Assembly (NCBI GenBank): GCA_038030265.1
Contig: CM075941.1
Coordinates: 43,090,164 to 43,154,163, forward strand
Reading direction: 5' to 3'
DNA: 64,000 bases
Origin: Corythucha ciliata
Lineage: Eukaryota > Arthropoda > Insecta > Hemiptera > Tingidae
A program made the translations under genes and the position numbers. The notes under the pieces are model-generated. The model made no database searches and was not told the origin of the DNA. It saw only the letters and a list, made by a program, of their open reading frames with translations. Shown in pieces: positions 18,321-64,000 of this stretch; the stretch's first letter is position 1; each line of letters begins with the position of its first letter.

Positions 18321-18391
18321 AGCTAGGATTAAAGCTCGAATAAAATAGTAATCTCCACGGTACTTTAATTATTTAATTCAGTGTAACCGGT

Positions 18392-18416
18392 TTTCGATCC
18401 ACCGGATCATCATCAG
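18392..18416 (-). ncRNA. Hammerhead-ribozyme-like core, inverted PLE copy
   Basis: Reverse-complement copy of the 21,782-21,806 core, identical in CTGATGA, stem II and GAAA. Confidence 0.6.
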
Positions 18417-18593
18417 CACTACATATCAATAAAGAAAAACACACGATACGTTGGTTAAACAAACAATGATGAAAGCACAAGGAAACAATGAATGACTAGA
18501 TTAGTTACCTTAAAATAAAAACATCAGAAAAATGACTTTGTCAATTGTAACATTAGGCTTCACCGTGTATCGGCTTGTCAACACCTTCTCCAA

Positions 18594-18960
18594 CTAACTG
18601 ATTTGACTGAGTGGGATTTTCTTACTACTACGACTAGAAGAGATAAGCGTATTAAATAACAAGTTGAATGGGGAGGAAACCCCTTCCATCCTCTCGTTTA
18701 GACAGTGAGGATTATCCAGCAACTCCCTTGAAATAAATAAACCCTCCAATGCCTCCATCCGTCTCCCATACTGCTCAACCGCAAGAACCTGGGCTATGTG
18801 CTCTGAACCCTCTGCACCGCACTCACCCACATGAACCTTAAAGGCAGAATCAGACCTCGATAAATGCTCACGAAAACGCGTACGAAATTTTCGACCAGTA
18901 CGTCCACAATACGTAGCTAATTCACATTTCCCACACGTCAATTTATACATACCGCTTTCG
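18594..18960 (-). pseudogene. PLE GIY-YIG endonuclease, inverted partial copy (domain frame intact)
   Basis: The - frame reads YKLTCGKCELATYCGRTGRK, then TRFREHLSRSDSAFK, ending SSKKIPLSQIS and a stop near 18,594. This is the GIY-YIG fold of Penelope elements, with the second motif as YCG. The catalytic Arg region (RFREH) is present and the frame is uninterrupted, whereas the + copy has a 1-bp deletion. It lacks the RT and so is only an inverted terminal part. It pairs with 21,237-21,604 as an inverted repeat. Confidence 0.8.
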
Positions 18961-19853
18961 TCTGGTTCAAATGAACGCGAGCGCCCCTAAATTATATGCT
19001 CTTCCTAAATTACATAAACCGACGGAGAATGGTGTACCGAGAATTCGTCCGGTTGTGTCTTATATTGCGGCACCGAGTGGAAAAAATAGCTAAAAGAATA
19101 AGTCAAGTATTTGTGAAAGAAACTAATTTTAAAAGTCAACACTCTATTATTAACAGTACGGATTTAGTTGAGAAAATTGTGCAAGTCAAATTGGATGATA
19201 AATGTAGGTTATTCTCACTTGATGTGTGTAATTTATTTATGTCCATCCCCCCGAGTGATGTATTGGAAATAGTGAATAAGAAACGTAATGAAAAATGTAA
19301 AAATAAGGTCTTATTGGAGGAGATCCAGCAACTCTTTGGCCTGTGCCTGAAGCAGAATTACTGTCAGTTTGAGCACAAATTTTATGAGCAAAAGAATGGG
19401 CTAGCGATGGGTTCTCCCCTCTCACCATTAAGTGCGGAATTATTCATGGACGATTTTGAGAAGAGTTTCATAATGAATGAATCGAATCCATTTAGAGAGA
19501 ATATTCGTTTCTATTGCCGATACGTGGATGACACACTCTTGGTTTGGGAGGGCGAGGACGAGTTATTTTCCAAGTTCGTGGAATATCTGAACTCAAGGAA
19601 AACGTGCATACAATTCACTTCGGAGAAGGAATCGGTAACGAGGAGCATAAACTTTTTGGACCTCACTTTAACACGCACTGAGGAAAGCATAAAGTTTCAG
19701 ATATATCGTAAACCCACGGCGACGGACATAATCAACCATCGGACTCAAATCACCATCCGAGGCATAAAATGGCGGCCCTCCGTAGTTTTGTGCATCGTCT
19801 CCTTACCGTACCCTTGGATAGCAATGCGTATTTAAAGGAACTACAAGTTATCT
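18961..19853 (+). pseudogene. PLE reverse transcriptase, N-terminal and catalytic part
   Basis: Begins with the PLE signature PKLYALPKLHKP in one frame; an A-run at about 19,078-19,088 shifts to the frame carrying FSLDVCNLFMSIPPSDVLE, QKNGLAMGSPLSPLSAELF, the catalytic RYVDDTLLVW (about 19,520-19,548) and INFLDLTLTR. Another shift near 19,740 leads to FVHRLLTVPLDSNAYLKEL, where the palindromic insertion breaks it. PLE RTs are telomerase-related and prime on nicked DNA. Catalytic residues survive but the frame does not. Confidence 0.9.
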
Positions 19854-20379
19854 TGTATCGAAATGACGTCACTACGAAAATATTTAAAAAGAGTCAGATT
19901 GAAAAAAAAGAAAAAGAGGAGGATTTCAGTTCCTTTCTGGAATCAAAGCGAGGTGGGCCTTTTGACAAATTAAAAAAAAAAAGGTAGAGATCTCGTCCAT
20001 AGAAACTCGCGACGTAAGCGCTCATCAGTTTATACGCAACGTTAAAGAAACATCCGTCTGATAATCACGAAACCGATCACCGAAAAGTATCGAATCACGG
20101 CCGTCGGATTGACTTCATCAAACTCATCCGAAATCGACAATTCCATTGTTGGACCATCGGCGTTTGGAGGAAATTGAAATAACCTCGTCGGTCATCGACC
20201 AAGAAATTCGATCAAGAACAAAAAAAAAAGATACAGAAGCCAGAAGAAAGAGGAAAGGAAGTCTTTTCAAAATTTAAAAAAAAATAGATTCATTTTAAAT
20301 TTCGATACTAATTCAAACTCTTTCATTTCAGTTACAATTAATAATTCTTTTTTAAAAATAAAATAACGGAAACGTTACA
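19854..20379 (+). repeat. Left LTR of the palindromic element
   Basis: 526 bp with TG...CA ends. It is followed after one base by a perfect 18-nt tRNA-Lys primer-binding site, which sets its orientation as a 5' LTR on +. Confidence 0.85.
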
Positions 20380-20380
20380 T

Positions 20381-20417
20381 TGGCGCCCGAACAGGGACAC
20401 GAACCCTGGACCCTCAG
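20381..20417 (+). promoter_or_regulatory. tRNA-Lys primer-binding site extended to 37 nt
   Basis: TGGCGCCCGAACAGGGAC is the complement of the 3' 18 nt of tRNA-Lys(UUU) including CCA. Complementarity continues through the T loop, variable loop and into the anticodon stem (to CCCTCAG), far beyond a normal primer site. One T-loop region difference (ACG versus TTG in the vertebrate tRNA I remember) is visible. Confidence 0.8.
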
Positions 20418-20420
20418 CAA

Positions 20421-20951
20421 TGTAACGTTTCCGTTATTTTATTTTAAAAAAGAATTATTAATTGTAACTGAAATGAAAGAGTTTGAATTAGTATCGAAAT
20501 TTAAAATGAATCTATTTTTTTTTTTAAATTTTGAAAAGACTTGCTTTCCTCTTTCTTCTGGCTTCTGTATCTTTTTTTTTTTTGTTCTTGATCGAATTTC
20601 TTGGTCGATGACCGACGAGGTTATTTCAATTTCCTCCAAACGCCGATGGTCCAACAATGGAATTGTCGATTTCGGATGAGTTTGATGAAGTCAATCCGAC
20701 GGCCGTGATTCGATACTTTTCGGTGATCGGTTTCGTGATTATCAGACGGATGTTTCTTTAACGTTGCGTATAAACTGATGAGCGCTTACGTCGCGAGTTT
20801 CTATGGACGAGATCTCTACCTTTTTTTTTTTTTAATTTGTCAAAAGGCCCACCTCGCTTTGATTACAGAAAGGAACTGAAATCCTCCTCTTTTTCTTTTT
20901 TTCCCATCTGACTCTTTTTAAATATTTTCGTAGTGACGTCATTTCGATACA
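20421..20951 (-). repeat. Right, inverted LTR of the palindromic element
   Basis: 531 bp, the reverse complement of 19,854-20,379 with a few substitutions and homopolymer length changes (for example near 20,900-20,910). It ends CGATACA directly before the right ATCT duplication. Confidence 0.85.
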
Positions 20952-20955
20952 ATCT

Positions 20956-21604
20956 ATCACATAGCTAAAGTGAATGGTTTCTCGAAATCCTGTGTTGACA
21001 GATTGATAGGAAACAAGAAGAGACAACTGCTGCTTAGACAATGTTTCCCGGCTTCCTTTCAAGCAGAAAGGAGTAAAGAAGAGGTAGCAGGCCCGTGGAT
21101 TTGTCTTCCGTATCTTGGACAGGCATCACTTGGTTTGGAGAGGATCCTACGGAAAAGAGTTTACAAGATAGCCTTTAAGAGTGTTGATACCGTGAAGGAG
21201 CTTGTAGGAAACGGAAAAGACAAAGTTAAAATGGTGGACAAAAGCGGTATATATAAATTGACGTGTGGGAAATGTGAATTAGCTACGTATTGTGGGCGTA
21301 CTGGTCGAAAATTTGTACGCGTTTTCGTGAGCATTTATCGAGGTCTGATTCTGCCTTTAAGGTTCTTGTGGGTGAGTGCGGTGCAGAGGGTTCAGAGCAC
21401 ATAGCCCAGGTTCTTGCGGTTGAGCAGTATGGGAGGCGGATGGAGGCGTTGGAGGGTTTATTTATTTCAAGGGAGTTGCTGGATAATCCTCACTGTCTAA
21501 ACGAGAGGATGGAAGGGGTTTCCTCCCCATTCAACTTGTTATTTAATACGCTTATCTCTTCTAGTCGTAGTAGTAAGAAAATCCCACTCAGTCAAATCAG
21601 TTAG
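20956..21604 (+). pseudogene. PLE RT C-terminus, linker and GIY-YIG endonuclease
   Basis: Continues the RT after the palindromic insertion: HIAKVNGFSKSCVDRLIGNK, a linker ending KVKMVDK, then SGIYKLTCGKCELATYCGRTG and RFREHLSRSDSAF. A single C missing near 21,313 (compared with the inverted copy) shifts the frame inside the nuclease. The GIY-YIG nuclease nicks target DNA for priming. The C-terminus SSKKIPLSQIS matches the inverted copy exactly. Confidence 0.85.
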
Positions 21605-21781
21605 TTGGAGAAGGTGTTGACAAGCCGATACATGGTGAAGCCTAATGTTACAATTGACAAAGTCATTTTTCTGATGTTTTTATTTTAAGGTAACTAATCT
21701 AGTCATTCATTGTTTCCTTGTGCTTTCATCATTGTTTGTTTAACCAACGTATCGTGTGTTTTTCTTTATTGATATGTAGTG

Positions 21782-21806
21782 CTGATGATGATCCGGTGGA
21801 TCGAAA
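21782..21806 (+). ncRNA. Hammerhead-ribozyme-like core, PLE copy
   Basis: CTGATGA, one base, a perfect stem II (GATCC/GGATC with loop GGT), then GAAA. This is the conserved hammerhead core, downstream of the nuclease stop where PLEs are known to carry such motifs. Stems I and III and the cleavage site were not resolved, although GAAA is followed by the palindrome ACCGGT. Confidence 0.6.
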
Positions 21807-21913
21807 ACCGGTTACACTGAATTAAATAATTAAAGTACCGTGGAGATTACTATTTTATTCGAGCTTTAATCCTAGCTGAAAAAAACTCCACAACATCGAG
21901 GTCATCCAAAGAA

Positions 21914-56829: not shown

Positions 56830-58878
56830 GCCACAATTGAGAAAAGTGATAATTCGCGTCTAAAATTGACAAAAGGCGTTAGCTAAAAATGATAAAATCG
56901 GCTAATAAATTGTGAAAAAAGGCAAATTCTTATTGTATATTTGATAGACATGTATAATTTGCGGATAAATTGGAAGAACTATAATTCGTAGCTAAAATGT
57001 GGAAAAAGTGCCTATTCACGCCTATAATGTGGGAAAAGTGCAAATTCGCGGCTAAAATGGAAAAAAACGGGTTAATTCATGACTAAAACGTAAAGAAAGC
57101 GCTAATTGAGGGATTGGGGGGGGGGCAAAGGGAGAAAAAAGTGAATTTACAGCTAAAAGAGAAAAATCGGGGTCTAAAATGGAGAAAAACTTACATTTTG
57201 GGCTAGAGGTGATAAATCGGTTGAAATTGAAAAAAAATCAATCATTCGCTAATTCTCGACCAAAATTTGAGAAAAATCAATAATTTCGATTCTAATCACG
57301 AGTCCTATGAGAGGTGGGACTCGAGCGATTCTAGCGTTTTGTGCGTGTTTAGCGTTTGTAGAAGGAGCACGCTGAACACTACGAGCGTTTTCCACAACTA
57401 AAAACGCTCAAACCGCTGAACGCTAAGCACGCGATTCTTACTCACATATGACGCACGGGGACTACAAATAAAATTGACTAATTTTCGTTTAAAATAAAGA
57501 AAAATCATTAATTATTTCCCAAAAGTGATAAAATCGCTACTTAATTGAGAAAACCGCGGTAATTCCCGGGTAAAAATGAGTAAAAACACTAATTAGCGGA
57601 TGAAATGTAGAAAAAGTGCTAATTAGCGGCTAAAATGGTGAAAAAACTATGCCTAATTCACGGCAAAAATTGAAAAATGCGCTAATCCGCGGATAAAATG
57701 AAAAGAAAGCACTAATTCCAGGCCAGAAAAAGAGTGAGAAAATAAAAAGTGGCTAAAATTGAGAAAAAGCCATCATTCGCTAATTCACGTCCAAAATTGA
57801 AGAAAAACACTAATTCCCACTTAAATGAATGAAAGGCACTGATTTGCCGCTGAAATGGAGAAAAAGGGTAATTTCATAGCTAAAAGTGATAAAAGCGCTG
57901 CTAAATTGATGAATTAATGCCAATTCCTGCGTATATAAATGAGAAAAATACACTGATTCCAGGCTAAAACGAAATATAAATGTTGATTAATGGCTAGAAG
58001 TGATAAATTGAGAAAAAATCTCAAATTCTCTGCTTGAAATGAGAAAAAACGAAAAAATTCGAGGCTGAAATTAAGAAATAACTTTAAAAATTAAAAAAAA
58101 AAAAATAAAGCTGCTAAATTCGTGGAAAAGCTCTCATTTGCGGCTAAAATGAAGATAAAGCGTTAATTCGTTGCTAGAAGTGATAAAATCGCTGCTAAAT
58201 TCAAAAAATCAGGAAAACACCGGAAATTCCCGGTCTCGTACTCAAAAACACTAATCAACTAATGGGCGGCTGAAATAGGGAAAAAGTGTTACTTAGTGTC
58301 TAAAATGGTGAAAAAACGACCATTCGCGGCAAAAATGAAGCGAAAGCACTAAGTTGAGGCTAAATTGAAGAAAAATCGTTCGGTTAATTGTACAAAAAAA
58401 GGGGCTAAAATTAAGGGAAATTCACGGCCAAATTAAATTGAGAAAAAGCACAAATTTGCCGCTAAAATTGTGCAAAAGCGTTGATTCATAGCCAAATGTG
58501 ATGAAAAAAAGCTGCTAAATTGATAAATAAACGGAAAATCCTAGGTATAATAATGAAAAAAACAAACAAACAAAAACGCCAATTGGCGGCTAAAATTGAA
58601 TGCAAACGTTAAGTGCTAGATGTGAAAAACACTGTTAAATTGATAACAAATCTCAAATTCCCGGCTTGAAATGAGAAAAAACACGAATACGCGGCTAATA
58701 TGGAGAAAAATCGCAAATTTGCGGTCAAACCGAAAGCTGATTATGTGAAAAAACGACTCGAGGAAAATCAATCATCCGCTAAATCACGGCGCCAAAATTA
58801 TATAAAGCACTAATCTGCTGCTAAAATGAAGAAAAAAACGTTCATTCATTGCTAAATGTGATAAAATCCCTGCTAACT

Positions 58879-58951
<73 letters not shown>

Positions 58952-59560
58952 AAACAAAAACAAAAATATAATAAAAAAAACCGATTCTCAGATATAAATG
59001 AGAGAAACACTAATTTGCGACTGAAATAGAAAATACGTTAATCCACTGCTAAAATTGAAAGAAAGCACTAATTCGAGGCTAAAATTAAGAACAAATGTTC
59101 GGCTAATTGTGGGGAGGAAAAAAAAGAAGAAAAAAAGGCTGAATTTGAGGAAAAGCACTATTTGTGGTTAAAATGAAGAAAAAATCGTTAATTCGTTGCT
59201 AAACGTGATAAAATCGCTGGCTGCTAAATTTAAAAAATCAAGAAAAGACCGAAAATTCCAGAACTAATTGGCGGCAGAAATGGAAAAAAAGGTTGCTAAT
59301 TAATGGCTAAAATACAGAAAAAACTATAATTCCAAAATAAAATGGGAAAAATGCGCTAATTCGCAGCTAAAATGAAAAAAAAACAAACGCAATAATTTAG
59401 AGGCTAAAATAAAGAAAAACGTTAAAATGAAATGAAAATCGATGCTAATTGAAAAATTGATGGAGCCCCGGTAATTCCCGGCTGAAATTTAAAAAAAAAG
59501 GATAATTCGAAGCTAAAATGAAAAAATTCGCTAATTCGCAGCAGAAATGAAATGAAAGCT
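56830..59560 (+). repeat. Minisatellite family A array, unit 1 of a tandem duplication
   Basis: Diverged family A units in + orientation. Landmarks shared with the second unit: a G-run near 57,115, a GC-richer island at 57,297-57,470 (AGCGTTTTGTGCGTGTTTAGCG) and a (GAAA)n microsatellite at 58,877-58,955. Confidence 0.8.
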
Positions 59561-59648
59561 CTAATATTAAGGGGTTCAATAAAAAGACGTTGTTATGCGG
59601 TTTCTCCTTCGCGTTTGAACGTGTACAGCAGGCCCAAAGCCTGCCTTT

Positions 59649-60362
59649 TTGGCAGTCCCACTGACGAATGAAACATTTAATGAAGAGTTAGCCTACATAG
59701 AACACGTGGCACAGGTGAATGGCTTTAAAGAGGGCATGGTGAGGCGAATTGTCCAAAAACAAAATAATAAAAGGCTACTTCCACGCTTAACGCAGCTCAC
59801 GCTCATCAACAATGAAAAGTCAAAAGGTTGGGTATCTCTACCATTTACAGGAGAACTTTCGATGGAGATTGGAGGAATTCTGAAGCGCCGCGGCTATAAT
59901 ACAGGTTTCAAGTCTAGCCAAAACCTCCGTGATATGCTTTCCCAGGTAAATGACAAAATTAAATATGAGGACCGGAACGGGGTGTATAGACTGATTTGCG
60001 GCAAGTGTGGAGAGGCATCGTACATTGGACAGGTGGGACGAGCACTAAAACAAAGAATAAAAGAACACACGTCAAGAACGGAGTCGAAATTTAAGCATCA
60101 CTTGAGCGAGTGTGAAGGGACGGTTGACGGAGTTCATCAGGCATCCCTTCTACATAACGTCACGAAGGGGAGGCTGATGAATAGTCTGGAGTCATTCGAG
60201 ATTTATCGCGAATTTAAAATCCGAGGTGAAAAAGTTTTGAACGAAAGATCGGAGTCCACACGAACGCCTCTTCTCACAACGCTTTGGGCCTGCTGTACAC
60301 GTTCAAACGCGAAGGAGAAACCGCATTTGACATTTAATGATGACGGTGTGATAAACCCCTAA
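59649..60362 (+). pseudogene. PLE RT C-terminus and GIY-YIG endonuclease, copy A (open frame)
   Basis: 237 open codons without an ATG start, so a truncated protein. Residues 1-30 (VPLTNETFNEELAYIEHVAQ) match the region after the PLE RT. From about residue 111, NGVYRLICGKCGEASYIGQV gives the GVY and YIG motifs with the CxxC insertion typical of Penelope, followed by ALKQRIKEH (catalytic Arg region). The C-terminus runs to GVINP. It differs from the 18-22 kb PLE family. The nuclease frame is intact. Confidence 0.85.
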
Positions 60363-60498
60363 CTTTTAATTTATTTTTAACTTATTTCTCCATGCGATCT
60401 AGTCAAAAGGTAATCAGCCGTACTGTTTAATTGTTTTGTTTTCTATATTACTTATTTATTGATCAATTACCCCTCTCCCTACTTGTGTAGCCTAAACC

Positions 60499-60522
60499 CT
60501 GACGATGATCTAGCGATCGAAA
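60499..60522 (+). ncRNA. Hammerhead-ribozyme-like core, PLE copy A
   Basis: CTGACGA, one base, stem II GATC/GATC with loop TAGC, then GAAA: a complete core (CUGANGA is permitted). It lies in the 3' region, 137 bp after the stop codon. Stems I and III were not resolved. Confidence 0.55.
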
Positions 60523-60589
60523 GCGCTCGGGAGTCGAATTAAAAAGTGAGTGAAACAACGTCTTTTTATTGAACCCCTTAATATTACAA

Positions 60590-61536
60590 GGGCACTCACA
60601 ACATCGCCTTCGTTTGAAGAACTGAAAGCTCTAATTCGAGGCTAAAAATCAAGAAAGAACGTTCGGCTAATTGTGAAAGAAACGGCTAAGTTCGAGAAAA
60701 ATTGAGCAAGCAAAATTGAAAAACACTAATTAGCGGATGAAATGTAGAAAAAGTGCTAATTAGCTGCTAAAATGGTGAAAAACCTATGCCTAATGCACGG
60801 CAGAAATGGAAAAAAACGGGTTAATTTATGACTGAAAAGTAAAGAAAGCGCTAATTGAGGGGTTGGGGGGGGGCAAAGGGAGAAAAAAGTGAATTTACAG
60901 CTAAAAGAGAAAAATCGGGGTCTAAAATGGAGAAAAACTTACATTTTGGGCTAGAGGTGATAAATCGGTTGAAATTGAAAAAAAATCAATCATTCGCTAA
61001 TTCTCGACCAAAATTTGAGAAAAATCAATAATTTCGATTCTAATCACGAGTTCTATGAGAGGTGGGAGTCGAGCGATTCTAGCGTTTTGTGCGTGTTTAG
61101 CGTTTGTAGAAGGTGCACGCAGAACACTACGAGCGTTTTCCACAACTAAAAACGCTTAAACCGCTGAACGCTGAGCACGCGAGTTCTTACTCACATATGA
61201 CGCACGGGGACTACAAGAAAAAATTGACTAACTTTCGTTTAAAATAAAGAAAAAGCTTTAAATTCGTTGCCCGAAAGGTGATAAAATCGCTACTGAATTG
61301 AGAAAACCCCGTAATTCCGGGTAAAAATGAGTAAAAACACGAATTAGCGGATGAAAGTAGAAAAAGTGCTAATTACTGCTAAAATGGTGAAAAACCTATG
61401 CCTAATTCGAAGCTAAAATGAAAAAATTCGCTAATTCGCAGCTAAAATGAAGAAAAAAACGTTCATTCATTGCTAAATGTGATAAAATCCCTGCTAACTG
61501 AAGAAAGAAAGAAAGAAAGAAAGAAGAAAGAAAGAA

Positions 61537-61572
<36 letters not shown>

Positions 61573-62180
61573 AAACAAAAACAAAAATATAATAAAAAAA
61601 AAACCGATTCTCAGATATAAATGAGAGAAACACTAATTTGCGACTGAAATAGAAAATACGTTAATCCACTGCTAAAATTGAAAGAAAGCACTAATTCGAG
61701 GCTAAAATTAGAACAAATGTTCGGCTAATTTTGTGGAGGAAAAAAAAGAAGAAAAAAAGGCTGAATTTGAGGAAAAGCACTATTTGTGGTTAAAATGAAG
61801 AAAAAATCGTTAATTCGTTGCTAAACGTGATAAAATCGCTGGCTGCTAAATTTAAAAAATCAAGAAAAGACCGAAAATTCCAGAACTAATTGGCGGCAGA
61901 AATGGAAAAAAAGGTTGTTAATTAATGGCTAAAATACAGAAAAAACTATAATTCGAAAATAAAATGGGAAAAATGAGCTAATTCGCAGCTAAAATGAAAA
62001 AAAAAAAACGCAATAATTTAGAGGCTAAAATAAAGAAAAACGTTAAAATGAAATGAAAATCGATGCTAATTGAAAAATTGATGGAGCCCCGGTAATTCCC
62101 GGCTGAAATTTAAAAAAAAAGGATAATTCGAAGCTAAAATGAAAAAATTCACTAATTCGCAGCAGAAATGAAATGAAAGC
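60590..62180 (+). repeat. Minisatellite family A array, unit 2 of the tandem duplication
   Basis: Repeats the landmarks of unit 1 (G-run at about 60,865, AGCGTTTTGTGCGTGTTTAGCG island at about 61,045-61,215, (GAAA)n at 61,501-61,574) but lacks roughly 1.1 kb corresponding to about 57,660-58,830. A short piece matching 59,507-59,543 is at the deletion junction (about 61,408-61,442). Confidence 0.8.
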
Positions 62181-62269
62181 TCTAATATTAAGGGGTTCAA
62201 TAAAAAGACGTTGTTATGCGGTTTCTCCTTCGCGTTTGAACGCGTACAGCAGGCCCAAAGCCTGCCTTT

Positions 62270-62982
62270 TTGGCAGTCCCACTGACGAATGAAACATTTA
62301 ATGAAGAGTTAGCCTACATGGAACACGTGGCACAGGTGAATGGCTTTAAAGAGGGCATGGTGAGGCGAATTGTCCAAAAACAAAATAATAAAAGGCTACT
62401 TCCACGCTTAACGCAGCTCACGCTCATCAACAATGAAAAGTCAAAAGGTTGGGTATCTCTACCATTTACAGGAGAACTTTCGAGGAGATTGGGAGAATTC
62501 TGAAGCGCCGCGGCTATAATACAGGTTTCAAGTCTAGCCAAAACCTCCGTGATATGCTTTCCCAGGTAAAAGACAAAATTAAATATGAGGACCGGAACGG
62601 GGTGTATAGACTGATTTGCGGCAAGTGTGGAGAGGCATCGTACGTTGGACAGGTGGGACGAGCACTAAAACAAAGAATAAAAGAACACACGTCAAGAACG
62701 GAGTCGAAATTTAAGCATCACTTGAGCGAGTGTGAAGGGACGGTTGACGGAGTTCATCAGGCATCCCTTCTACATAACGTCACGAAGGGGAGGCTGATGA
62801 ATAGGTTGGAGTCATTCGAGATTTATCGCGAATTTAAAATCCGAGGTGAAAAAGTTTTGAACGAAAGATCGGAGTCCACACGAACGCCTCTTCTCACAAC
62901 GCTTTGGGCCTGCTGTACACGTTCAAACGCGAAGGAGAAACCGCATTTGACATTTAATGACGACGGTGTGATAAACCCCTAA
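62270..62982 (+). pseudogene. PLE RT C-terminus and GIY-YIG endonuclease, copy B (frameshifted)
   Basis: Same product as copy A. Small differences at about 62,480-62,503 (GAGGAGATTGGGAG versus GATGGAGATTGGAGG) break the frame before the nuclease, which then runs open from 62,449 with NGVYRLICGKCGEASYVGQV. Other changes are single substitutions (Ile to Met, Asn to Lys, Ile to Val, Ser to Arg). Confidence 0.85.
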
Positions 62983-63118
62983 CTTTTAATTTATTTTTAA
63001 CTTATTTCTCCATGCGATCTAGTCAAAAGGTAATTAGCCGTACTGTTTAATTGTTTTGTTTTCTATATTACTTATTTATTGATCAATTACCCCTCTCCGG
63101 ACTTGTGTAGCCTAAACC

Positions 63119-63142
63119 CTGACGATGATCTAGCGATCTAAA
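63119..63142 (+). ncRNA. Hammerhead-like core, PLE copy B, broken
   Basis: Same as 60,499-60,522, but GAAA is TAAA at 63,139-63,142, which should abolish the ribozyme core. Stem II is unchanged. Confidence 0.5.
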
Positions 63143-63209
63143 GCGCTCGGGAGTCGAATTAAAAAGTGAGTGAAACAACGTCTTTTTATTGAACCCCTTA
63201 ATATTACAA

Positions 63210-64000
63210 GGGCACTCACAACATCGCCTTCGTTTGAAGAACTGAAAGCTCTAATTCGAGGCTAAAAATCAAGAAAGAACGTTCGGCTAATTGTGAAAGA
63301 AACGGCTAAGTTCGAGAAAAATTGAGCAAGCAAAATTGAAAAGCACTAATTTCCGCTTTAATAAATTGTTGCTTAAATGGTGGAAAATCGTTAATTCATG
63401 GCTAAACGTGACGAAATCACTGCTAAATTGAGAAATAAACGAAAACTCCAGGGTTGTAATAAGAAAAAACGCGAATTCGTGGATTAAAAAAGAGAAAAAT
63501 TGCAAATTCGCGGCTGAATTGGATACAAAAACGTCAATGTGCGGCTCATTGTGAATATAAGACGGTTAAATTGAGGAAAATCAATCATCGGCTAGTTCAC
63601 GGGCTGTAAATTAGAAAAAACACAAATTCGAGGCTTTTAATTGAGTAAAATCGCTAATTCGTGGCTAAAATAGGGAAAATGCTTTAATTCACGGTTCAAA
63701 ATGAAAGATGGCGTTAACGGGCTGCTAAAATAGTTAAAAATCGTGATTTTGCGGCTAAAATTGAGGAAAAGCAATCATTCTCTAATTTGCGGGCAGAATG
63801 AGAAAAATCACTAATTTCGACTAATTATTGAGAAAAAACACTAATTTGCGGTTGAAATTAAATAAGAGCGTTAATTCGTTGCTGAAATTGTACACTCACT
63901 GTTGAGAATAGTGAGAGAAAAAACGCAAACTCTCATATTTCTATGACTTATTGCACGAATTGCGAAAATTAAGAACAGCAATAAGTCCTAGCTATAGTTG
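63210..64000 (+). repeat. Minisatellite family A array continuing past the window
   Basis: Diverged + units to the window end. The duplicated segment ends at about 63,345; beyond it the sequence differs from the equivalent position at about 60,722. Confidence 0.75.

Follow-up and report, generated by a model that had tools for sequence, protein, structure and literature searches.

The window, a stretch of 64,000 nucleotides of the Corythucha ciliata genome (C5:43090164-43154163, in a searched assembly of 400.9 Mb and 57 contigs), contains a retroelement with a reverse transcriptase (RT) domain (RVT_1, ORF at 18975..19835, +), which is probably Penelope-like, as labelled in the original prediction, and which is interrupted by a short insertion. 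The insertion begins with a target-site duplication ATCT (19850..19853), followed by a full LTR (U3-R-U5) of 526 bp in sense orientation (19854..20379, +, TGTATCG...CGTTACA) and a single spacer T (20380, +). Next comes a copy of tRNA-Lys(UUU) from position 76 to 40 (20381..20417, -), including the CCA, which reads TGG on the forward strand. The trinucleotide CAA (20418..20420, -), the complement of the spacer T and the first two PBS nucleotides (TG), leads into a second full LTR of 531 bp, inverted with its U3 end outwards (20421..20951, -), and the right ATCT duplication closes the unit (20952..20955). The host retroelement is itself flanked by a 642-bp inverted repeat (18321-18962 and 21237-21877, 98.8% identical), and elsewhere the window holds a 1.94-kb direct repeat (58791-60731 and 61412-63351, 98.1% identical). 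A protein search with a neighbouring element returned 3630 hits, mostly insects among the named ones.

The ATCT duplications on both sides of the 19850-20955 unit are identical, and the exact TGT..ACA ends together with a 4-bp duplication mark the insert as integrase-mediated. It does not have the layout of a Ty3/gypsy LTR retrotransposon, that is, direct LTRs, an internal coding region, and U3 and U5 outer ends; instead, it has inverted LTRs, two outer U3 ends and a centre of 41 nt (20380-20420), 35 nt of which are non-palindromic. The original prediction of an LTR, a tRNA-Lys-derived core and an inverted LTR is supported: the arms, given there as ~530 bp, measure 526 and 531 bp, the non-palindromic centre has the anticipated ~35 nt, the ATCT copies are perfect, no coding internal region lies in the centre, and the sharing of one LTR terminus by both ends agrees with insertion through two U3 ends. 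The same prediction held that excision restores the host reading frame. When the insert is left out, one frame is indeed open through the join (...AYLKELQVI/YHIAKVNGFS..., frame 2), but it differs from that of the RT ORF, which stops before the insertion, so the host copy seems to be already frameshifted upstream.

The two arms differ at five of 524 aligned positions, one of them in an ambiguously aligned A/T-rich stretch, and also in the length of several homopolymer or A/T runs; for comparison, the LTR pairs of ordinary copies show 2/524 (C6) and 1/510 (C7) differences. At gap-free variable LTR columns the arms differ at four, with every state private to one arm, a pattern which, on the alignment, fits one source with later changes or polymerase errors. 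Alternatively, the arms may come from two slightly different sources, as some right-arm indel states in A/T runs are common to other copies, or from two identical RNAs rather than one minus strand.

The LTR of the window insert belongs to a family, referred to here as family 1, whose LTRs match the left arm in gapped BLAST at 98.3% (L009, C6), 98.1% (L012, C3), 97.7% (L011, C3) and 95.5% (L014, C7) identity. Relatives with direct LTRs lie at C6:33937313-33943416 (duplication AGAC) and C7:27124477-27130563 (duplication TAGG), and, as in Ty3/gypsy elements, the direct LTRs of the family have TG..CA ends and a short target duplication. Profile matches of the C6 copy comprise RVT_1, RT_RNaseH, Integrase_H2C2 and rve, with Asp_protease and RVP_2 both below the cut-off. 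Judged from the domain order protease, RT, RNase H, integrase, family 1 is a Ty3/gypsy LTR retrotransposon. A protein search with its integrase part gave 15 hits, the best-scoring at 36% identity and one of them named (Venturia canescens).

After the LTR and one T, as in the window, all six family-1 leaders fetched read TGGCGCCCGATCGAGTTA, and all six match the tRNA for 10 nt only. An origin of the core as an inherited family leader was considered and rejected, since the core is present in none of these six leaders. As they diverge from it after 10 nt, the tRNA most likely served as the template of the core during the insertion event, and tRNA sequence does not appear to be inherited in these copies. 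Past the PBS, the resemblance between one family-1 leader and the tRNA is weak, being equalled by 14 of 2000 simple shuffles. A different picture is seen in a third LTR family (family 3), which has two PBS forms: three loci (L055, L090 and L033) carry the exact 18-nt tRNA sequence, and at four others (L091, L092, L095 and L099) leader sequence sets in after a 10-nt match. It is as if the tRNA sequence had been inherited in some copies only of this young family, and the exact 18-nt PBS means that non-inheritance of tRNA sequence does not apply to every family.

We searched the genome for the tRNA-Lys complement, allowing T or A at the complement of position 58 and up to two mismatches, and found nine places. 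Five are tRNA-Lys(TTT) genes according to ARAGORN, all with A58, and two are fragments with T on the complement (L027 and L035). Only the window core and L026/L047 (C3:52542195) have A on the complement, and in both the TGG complementary to CCA adjoins an LTR end. The window core corresponds to tRNA-Lys(UUU) positions 40-76 with the CCA, and its sole mismatch to the tRNA-Lys gene plus CCA is A58 read as T (20399, +), the position of m1A58; the L047 copy has the identical lone mismatch. m1A is often copied as T, and the change in the core looks like an m1A58 signature in genomic DNA. The window copy stops at C40, so that two nucleotides, 39 and 38, separate its end from A37. A distant search of a phage collection and an exact 25-nt pattern search of viral contigs gave no match.

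L047 consists of a lone LTR (908-1391 of L047), the query for a second family (family 2), followed by a tRNA-Lys copy that extends to about position 12 and includes the CCA. ARAGORN calls this sequence (L026) a tRNA-Lys too. Because it carries the CCA, abuts an LTR end and aligns to the tRNA-Lys gene only from about position 12, we read it as a probable reverse-transcribed tRNA copy and not as a gene; even so, a tRNA-like sequence with T58 does exist in this genome, which counts against our reading of the window core. L047 was rejected as a second palindrome, having one LTR and no inverted arm; no clear 4-bp duplication was seen when its ends were examined, but 16 nt of its right flank recur ~95 bp upstream of the LTR. 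The fragment L027 (C4:1148514-1148549) has the same C40 boundary as the window core, and lacks the full CCA and the A58 change.

The window palindrome occurs once among the matches listed from the LTR search of the genome. Searches with the family-2 and family-3 LTRs, however, yielded further inverted pairs, and three insertions of these two families resemble it in that both U3 ends point outwards and the 4-bp duplications are perfect. L062 (C2:37506772-37508299, duplication CTAT) is made of an LTR, the PBS, 655 nt of leader and an inverted LTR. L061 (C5:15579222-15581060, duplication CAGC) follows the plan of L062, with a further stretch nested in the leader. L093 (C7:31457359-31458082, duplication GTAG) is made of an LTR holding a 77-nt internal repeat, a T, 18 nt of tRNA complement and 187 nt of inverted U3, which is entered through a 2-nt overlap. 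Since some family-3 copies have the 18-nt PBS, either this or the tRNA itself may be the source of the 18 nt in L093. In all four inverted insertions, plus-sense DNA runs on into an antisense LTR that ends at U3. The join lies after tRNA sequence in the window and L093, and within the leader in L061 and L062; the inverted arm starts two nucleotides into the PBS in the window and at most one in L061 and L062, where an overlap hides the exact point. Among the matches listed, the three families occupy ~65-70 LTR insertion loci, four of which are inverted with two outward U3 ends. These loci were grouped by eye, with shared-flank copies counted apart, and exclude matches to tRNA genes and other PBS regions, three matches to the non-LTR flank of the query, and two 124-nt matches at 72% (C3:4.92 and 4.95).

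Perfect 4-bp duplications flank all four of these inverted insertions, and 4-bp duplications were found at six of nine ordinary LTR copies tested, the misses being C5:40.43 and L018/L019 (shared flanks). A fifth inverted pair, not counted with the four, is L092 (C6:22308497-22309963), whose left LTR follows a PPT and is cut in U5 (399/438 nt), where it joins antisense leader; beyond the PPT, the integrase part alone of the body was recognised, and DNA adjoining L092 is 79% identical to the family-1 integrase part. At L016 (C5:52133097-52133854), a partial LTR leads through a short G-rich tract into a full LTR of the same orientation, another odd product, perhaps of plus-strand re-priming.

The junction shared by L061 and L062 bears on whether such insertions propagate. 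In both, the leader is joined to the U5 end via a 7-nt overlap, AAATGTA, which is found in the leader of the full-length copies L072 and L073 and at the inverted LTR end. Their LTRs are only ~81% identical and nearest to different subfamilies. There are 23 aligned leader sites at which L062 has the state of both full-length copies and L061 another one, no site unites L061 and L062 against both full-length copies, and a search with leader and junction found the complete join in these two loci only. From these site patterns, the junction apparently arose twice, and two origins at one microhomology are the simplest reading.

We propose, with a probability of roughly three in four, that the window insert arose from two plus-strand strong-stop (+sss) DNAs, one still tailed with tRNA sequence and the other made after primer removal, which were joined U5 to U5 and inserted via their two U3 ends. 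As read from the core, minus-strand DNA would have been primed by tRNA-Lys(UUU). A first PPT-primed +sss DNA would then have copied the LTR, entered the tRNA and passed m1A58 with A opposite, presumably on account of the modification, and would have ended after position 40, either just short of the anticodon loop or because the template was a tRNA 3' half whose 5' end lies there. In retroviruses, RNase H removes the tRNA and leaves one or two ribonucleotides. The right arm ends two nucleotides into the PBS, and the inverted arms of L061 and L062 at most one, as would be expected of a similar step here: once RNase H had stripped off the tRNA down to one or two ribonucleotides, a second +sss DNA would end two nucleotides into the PBS, and CAA at 20418..20420 may be read as the end of this second plus-strand DNA. 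Next, the tRNA tail of the first DNA would be linked to the second at its U5 end, through a homology-free template switch of reverse transcriptase or through end joining. Finally, integrase would pair the two U3 ends, whose use is indicated by the orientation of the LTRs, and make the 4-bp duplication. In the original prediction, the first of two alternatives was a tRNA-primed palindromic cDNA used by integrase, and this fits the core, the U3 ends and the ATCT duplication. To it we add that the core is not the leader of the family-1 copies fetched, that it has a single change, at the m1A58 position, and that the arms match two kinds of +sss DNA. The insertion appears to preserve a reverse-transcription intermediate that is normally lost.

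A possible, albeit more doubtful, alternative is that LTR DNAs of the proposed intermediates were joined by cellular end joining and not by reverse transcriptase. It is favoured by the second arm ending at or beside the natural U5 end and by the zero microhomology of the window junction, where, with no overlap, template switching is not favoured over end joining. The 7-nt overlap of L061 and L062 and the 2-nt overlap of L093, on the other hand, resemble priming of a 3' end on LTR DNA, although overlaps as short as these can be used by end joining too. Template switching could account for the junction overlaps, and end joining is possible, above all for the window. With regard to how far the first DNA was copied, the primer may have been a tRNA 3' half starting at position 40 and copied to its end, in place of a complete tRNA on which synthesis stopped near positions 39 to 37. 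C40 is the exact boundary of both the core and L027, and the available part of PMC5371799 mentions copia priming from a half tRNA and, for Ty5, a primer that is cleaved internally. We nevertheless consider this variant unlikely, as the L047 copy extends to about position 12, showing that a longer tRNA was copied at least once, and as L027 has neither the full CCA nor the A58 change.

The original prediction offered, as its other alternative, a non-autonomous family of this design; such an inverted-LTR family would replicate with LTRs taken from helper elements. That L061 and L062 share architecture and junction, yet have LTRs ~81% identical and nearer to different subfamilies, could be explained in this way. 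We find it improbable, however, because of the 23 sites at which L062 sides with the full-length copies against L061 and the absence of any uniting the two, and because the complete join is confined to L061 and L062 and the exact window palindrome occurs once among the matches listed; several copies with shared derived sites, as in a self-propagating family, were not found. As the inverted insertions in the other families look like separate events, the window insert is most likely a recurrent dead-end error product and not a replicating family. LTR pairs are known to recombine, and an ordinary element might have been rearranged later by inversion, deletion or LTR recombination. There is very little to recommend this, since recombination yields no CCA-bearing tRNA copy with the A58 change, and within one target duplication an ordinary element would not show U3 at both outer ends. 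Palindromic chimeras are likewise a known class of artefact, but an assembly error or a mirrored long read is hardly credible in view of the asymmetric tRNA core, the 4-bp duplication, the open frame of the empty site, and the substitutions and run-length differences between the arms, which mean that the arms are not one read mirrored. The palindrome is confirmed as genuine at the assembly level.

The two forms of +sss DNA in the window would fit, by analogy, the PPT-recycling model of yeast Ty1 and Ty3, with a left arm tailed by tRNA positions 76-40 and a right arm ending two nucleotides into the PBS. According to the accessible portion of PMC5371799, Ty1 and Ty3 appear to re-prime the PPT, and in PPT recycling (Lauermann and Boeke, as cited there) a first +sss DNA ending in the tRNA is displaced, a second one ends at U5 after the tRNA has been cut off, and dead-end +sss DNA builds up in Ty3 particles. 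Both tailed and tail-less +sss DNA are predicted by this model, as is a PBS not inherited from the tRNA; the window has one arm matching each kind, and the six family-1 leaders fetched have no tRNA sequence beyond 10 nt. Unlike the tailed DNA described there, which is a dead end in particles, that of the window is part of an integrated inverted dimer. The 37-nt tail of the window counts against our reading, as the available text of PMC5371799 states 12 nt for Ty3 and that of PMC13191261 18 nt for HIV-1, and so does the end of the copy at C40, short of A37. In HIV-1, according to the same portion of PMC13191261, plus-strand synthesis stops at m1A58 and a minor product stops at ms2t6A37; among the +sss products P2 to P5, these stops at m1A58 and in the modified anticodon loop lie at or near the ends of the tRNA sequence in L093 and in the core of the window, respectively. 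In HIV-1, stopping in the anticodon loop gives a minor product in vitro, whereas here it would be seen in a genomic copy of a Ty3/gypsy-type element.

Other known structures resemble the window insert in part. DIRS-1 has inverted LTRs too; it encodes a tyrosine recombinase, and its proposed intermediates are circular (PMC5633606, in the part available). In contrast to it, the window insert has no coding region and a 4-bp duplication, its centre, at 41 nt, is too short to encode a tyrosine recombinase, and its relatives are direct-LTR elements with an integrase, the domain being found in the related C6 copy. A solo LTR is a single LTR. TRIMs and solo LTRs are, like the window insert, short non-coding derivatives of LTR elements, but they have a single LTR or, as the consulted part of PMC6934838 describes for TRIMs, terminal direct repeats with PBS and PPT, and not an inverted LTR pair. 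Palindromic junctions of retroviral 2-LTR circles and inverted autointegration circles, as far as the available part of PMC5314604 goes, are also aberrant joins of LTR ends; they are circles, however, and not an inserted linear U5-to-U5 dimer. Our searches of open-licence literature turned up no account of inverted LTR dimers that are integrated and have both U3 ends facing outwards.

Whether animal Ty3/gypsy elements repeat +sss synthesis within a particle, as yeast Ty1 and Ty3 appear to, with tailed copies sometimes joined U5 to U5 with tail-less ones and integrated via two U3 ends, seems to us evenly poised. From the window insertion, it seems that a pair of U3 ends can be used by integrase in vivo, and the core indicates which tRNA really primes a family with a PBS match of 10 nt only. 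An intermediate known from particles and yeast genetics becomes countable in assembled genomes, and joins of an LTR, a tRNA tail and an inverted LTR may serve as a gauge of PPT recycling and of over-reading into the tRNA beyond yeast and retroviruses. If such repeated synthesis and joining do occur, genomes would retain a record of tRNA read-through, of primer identity and of tRNA modification at the time of reverse transcription.
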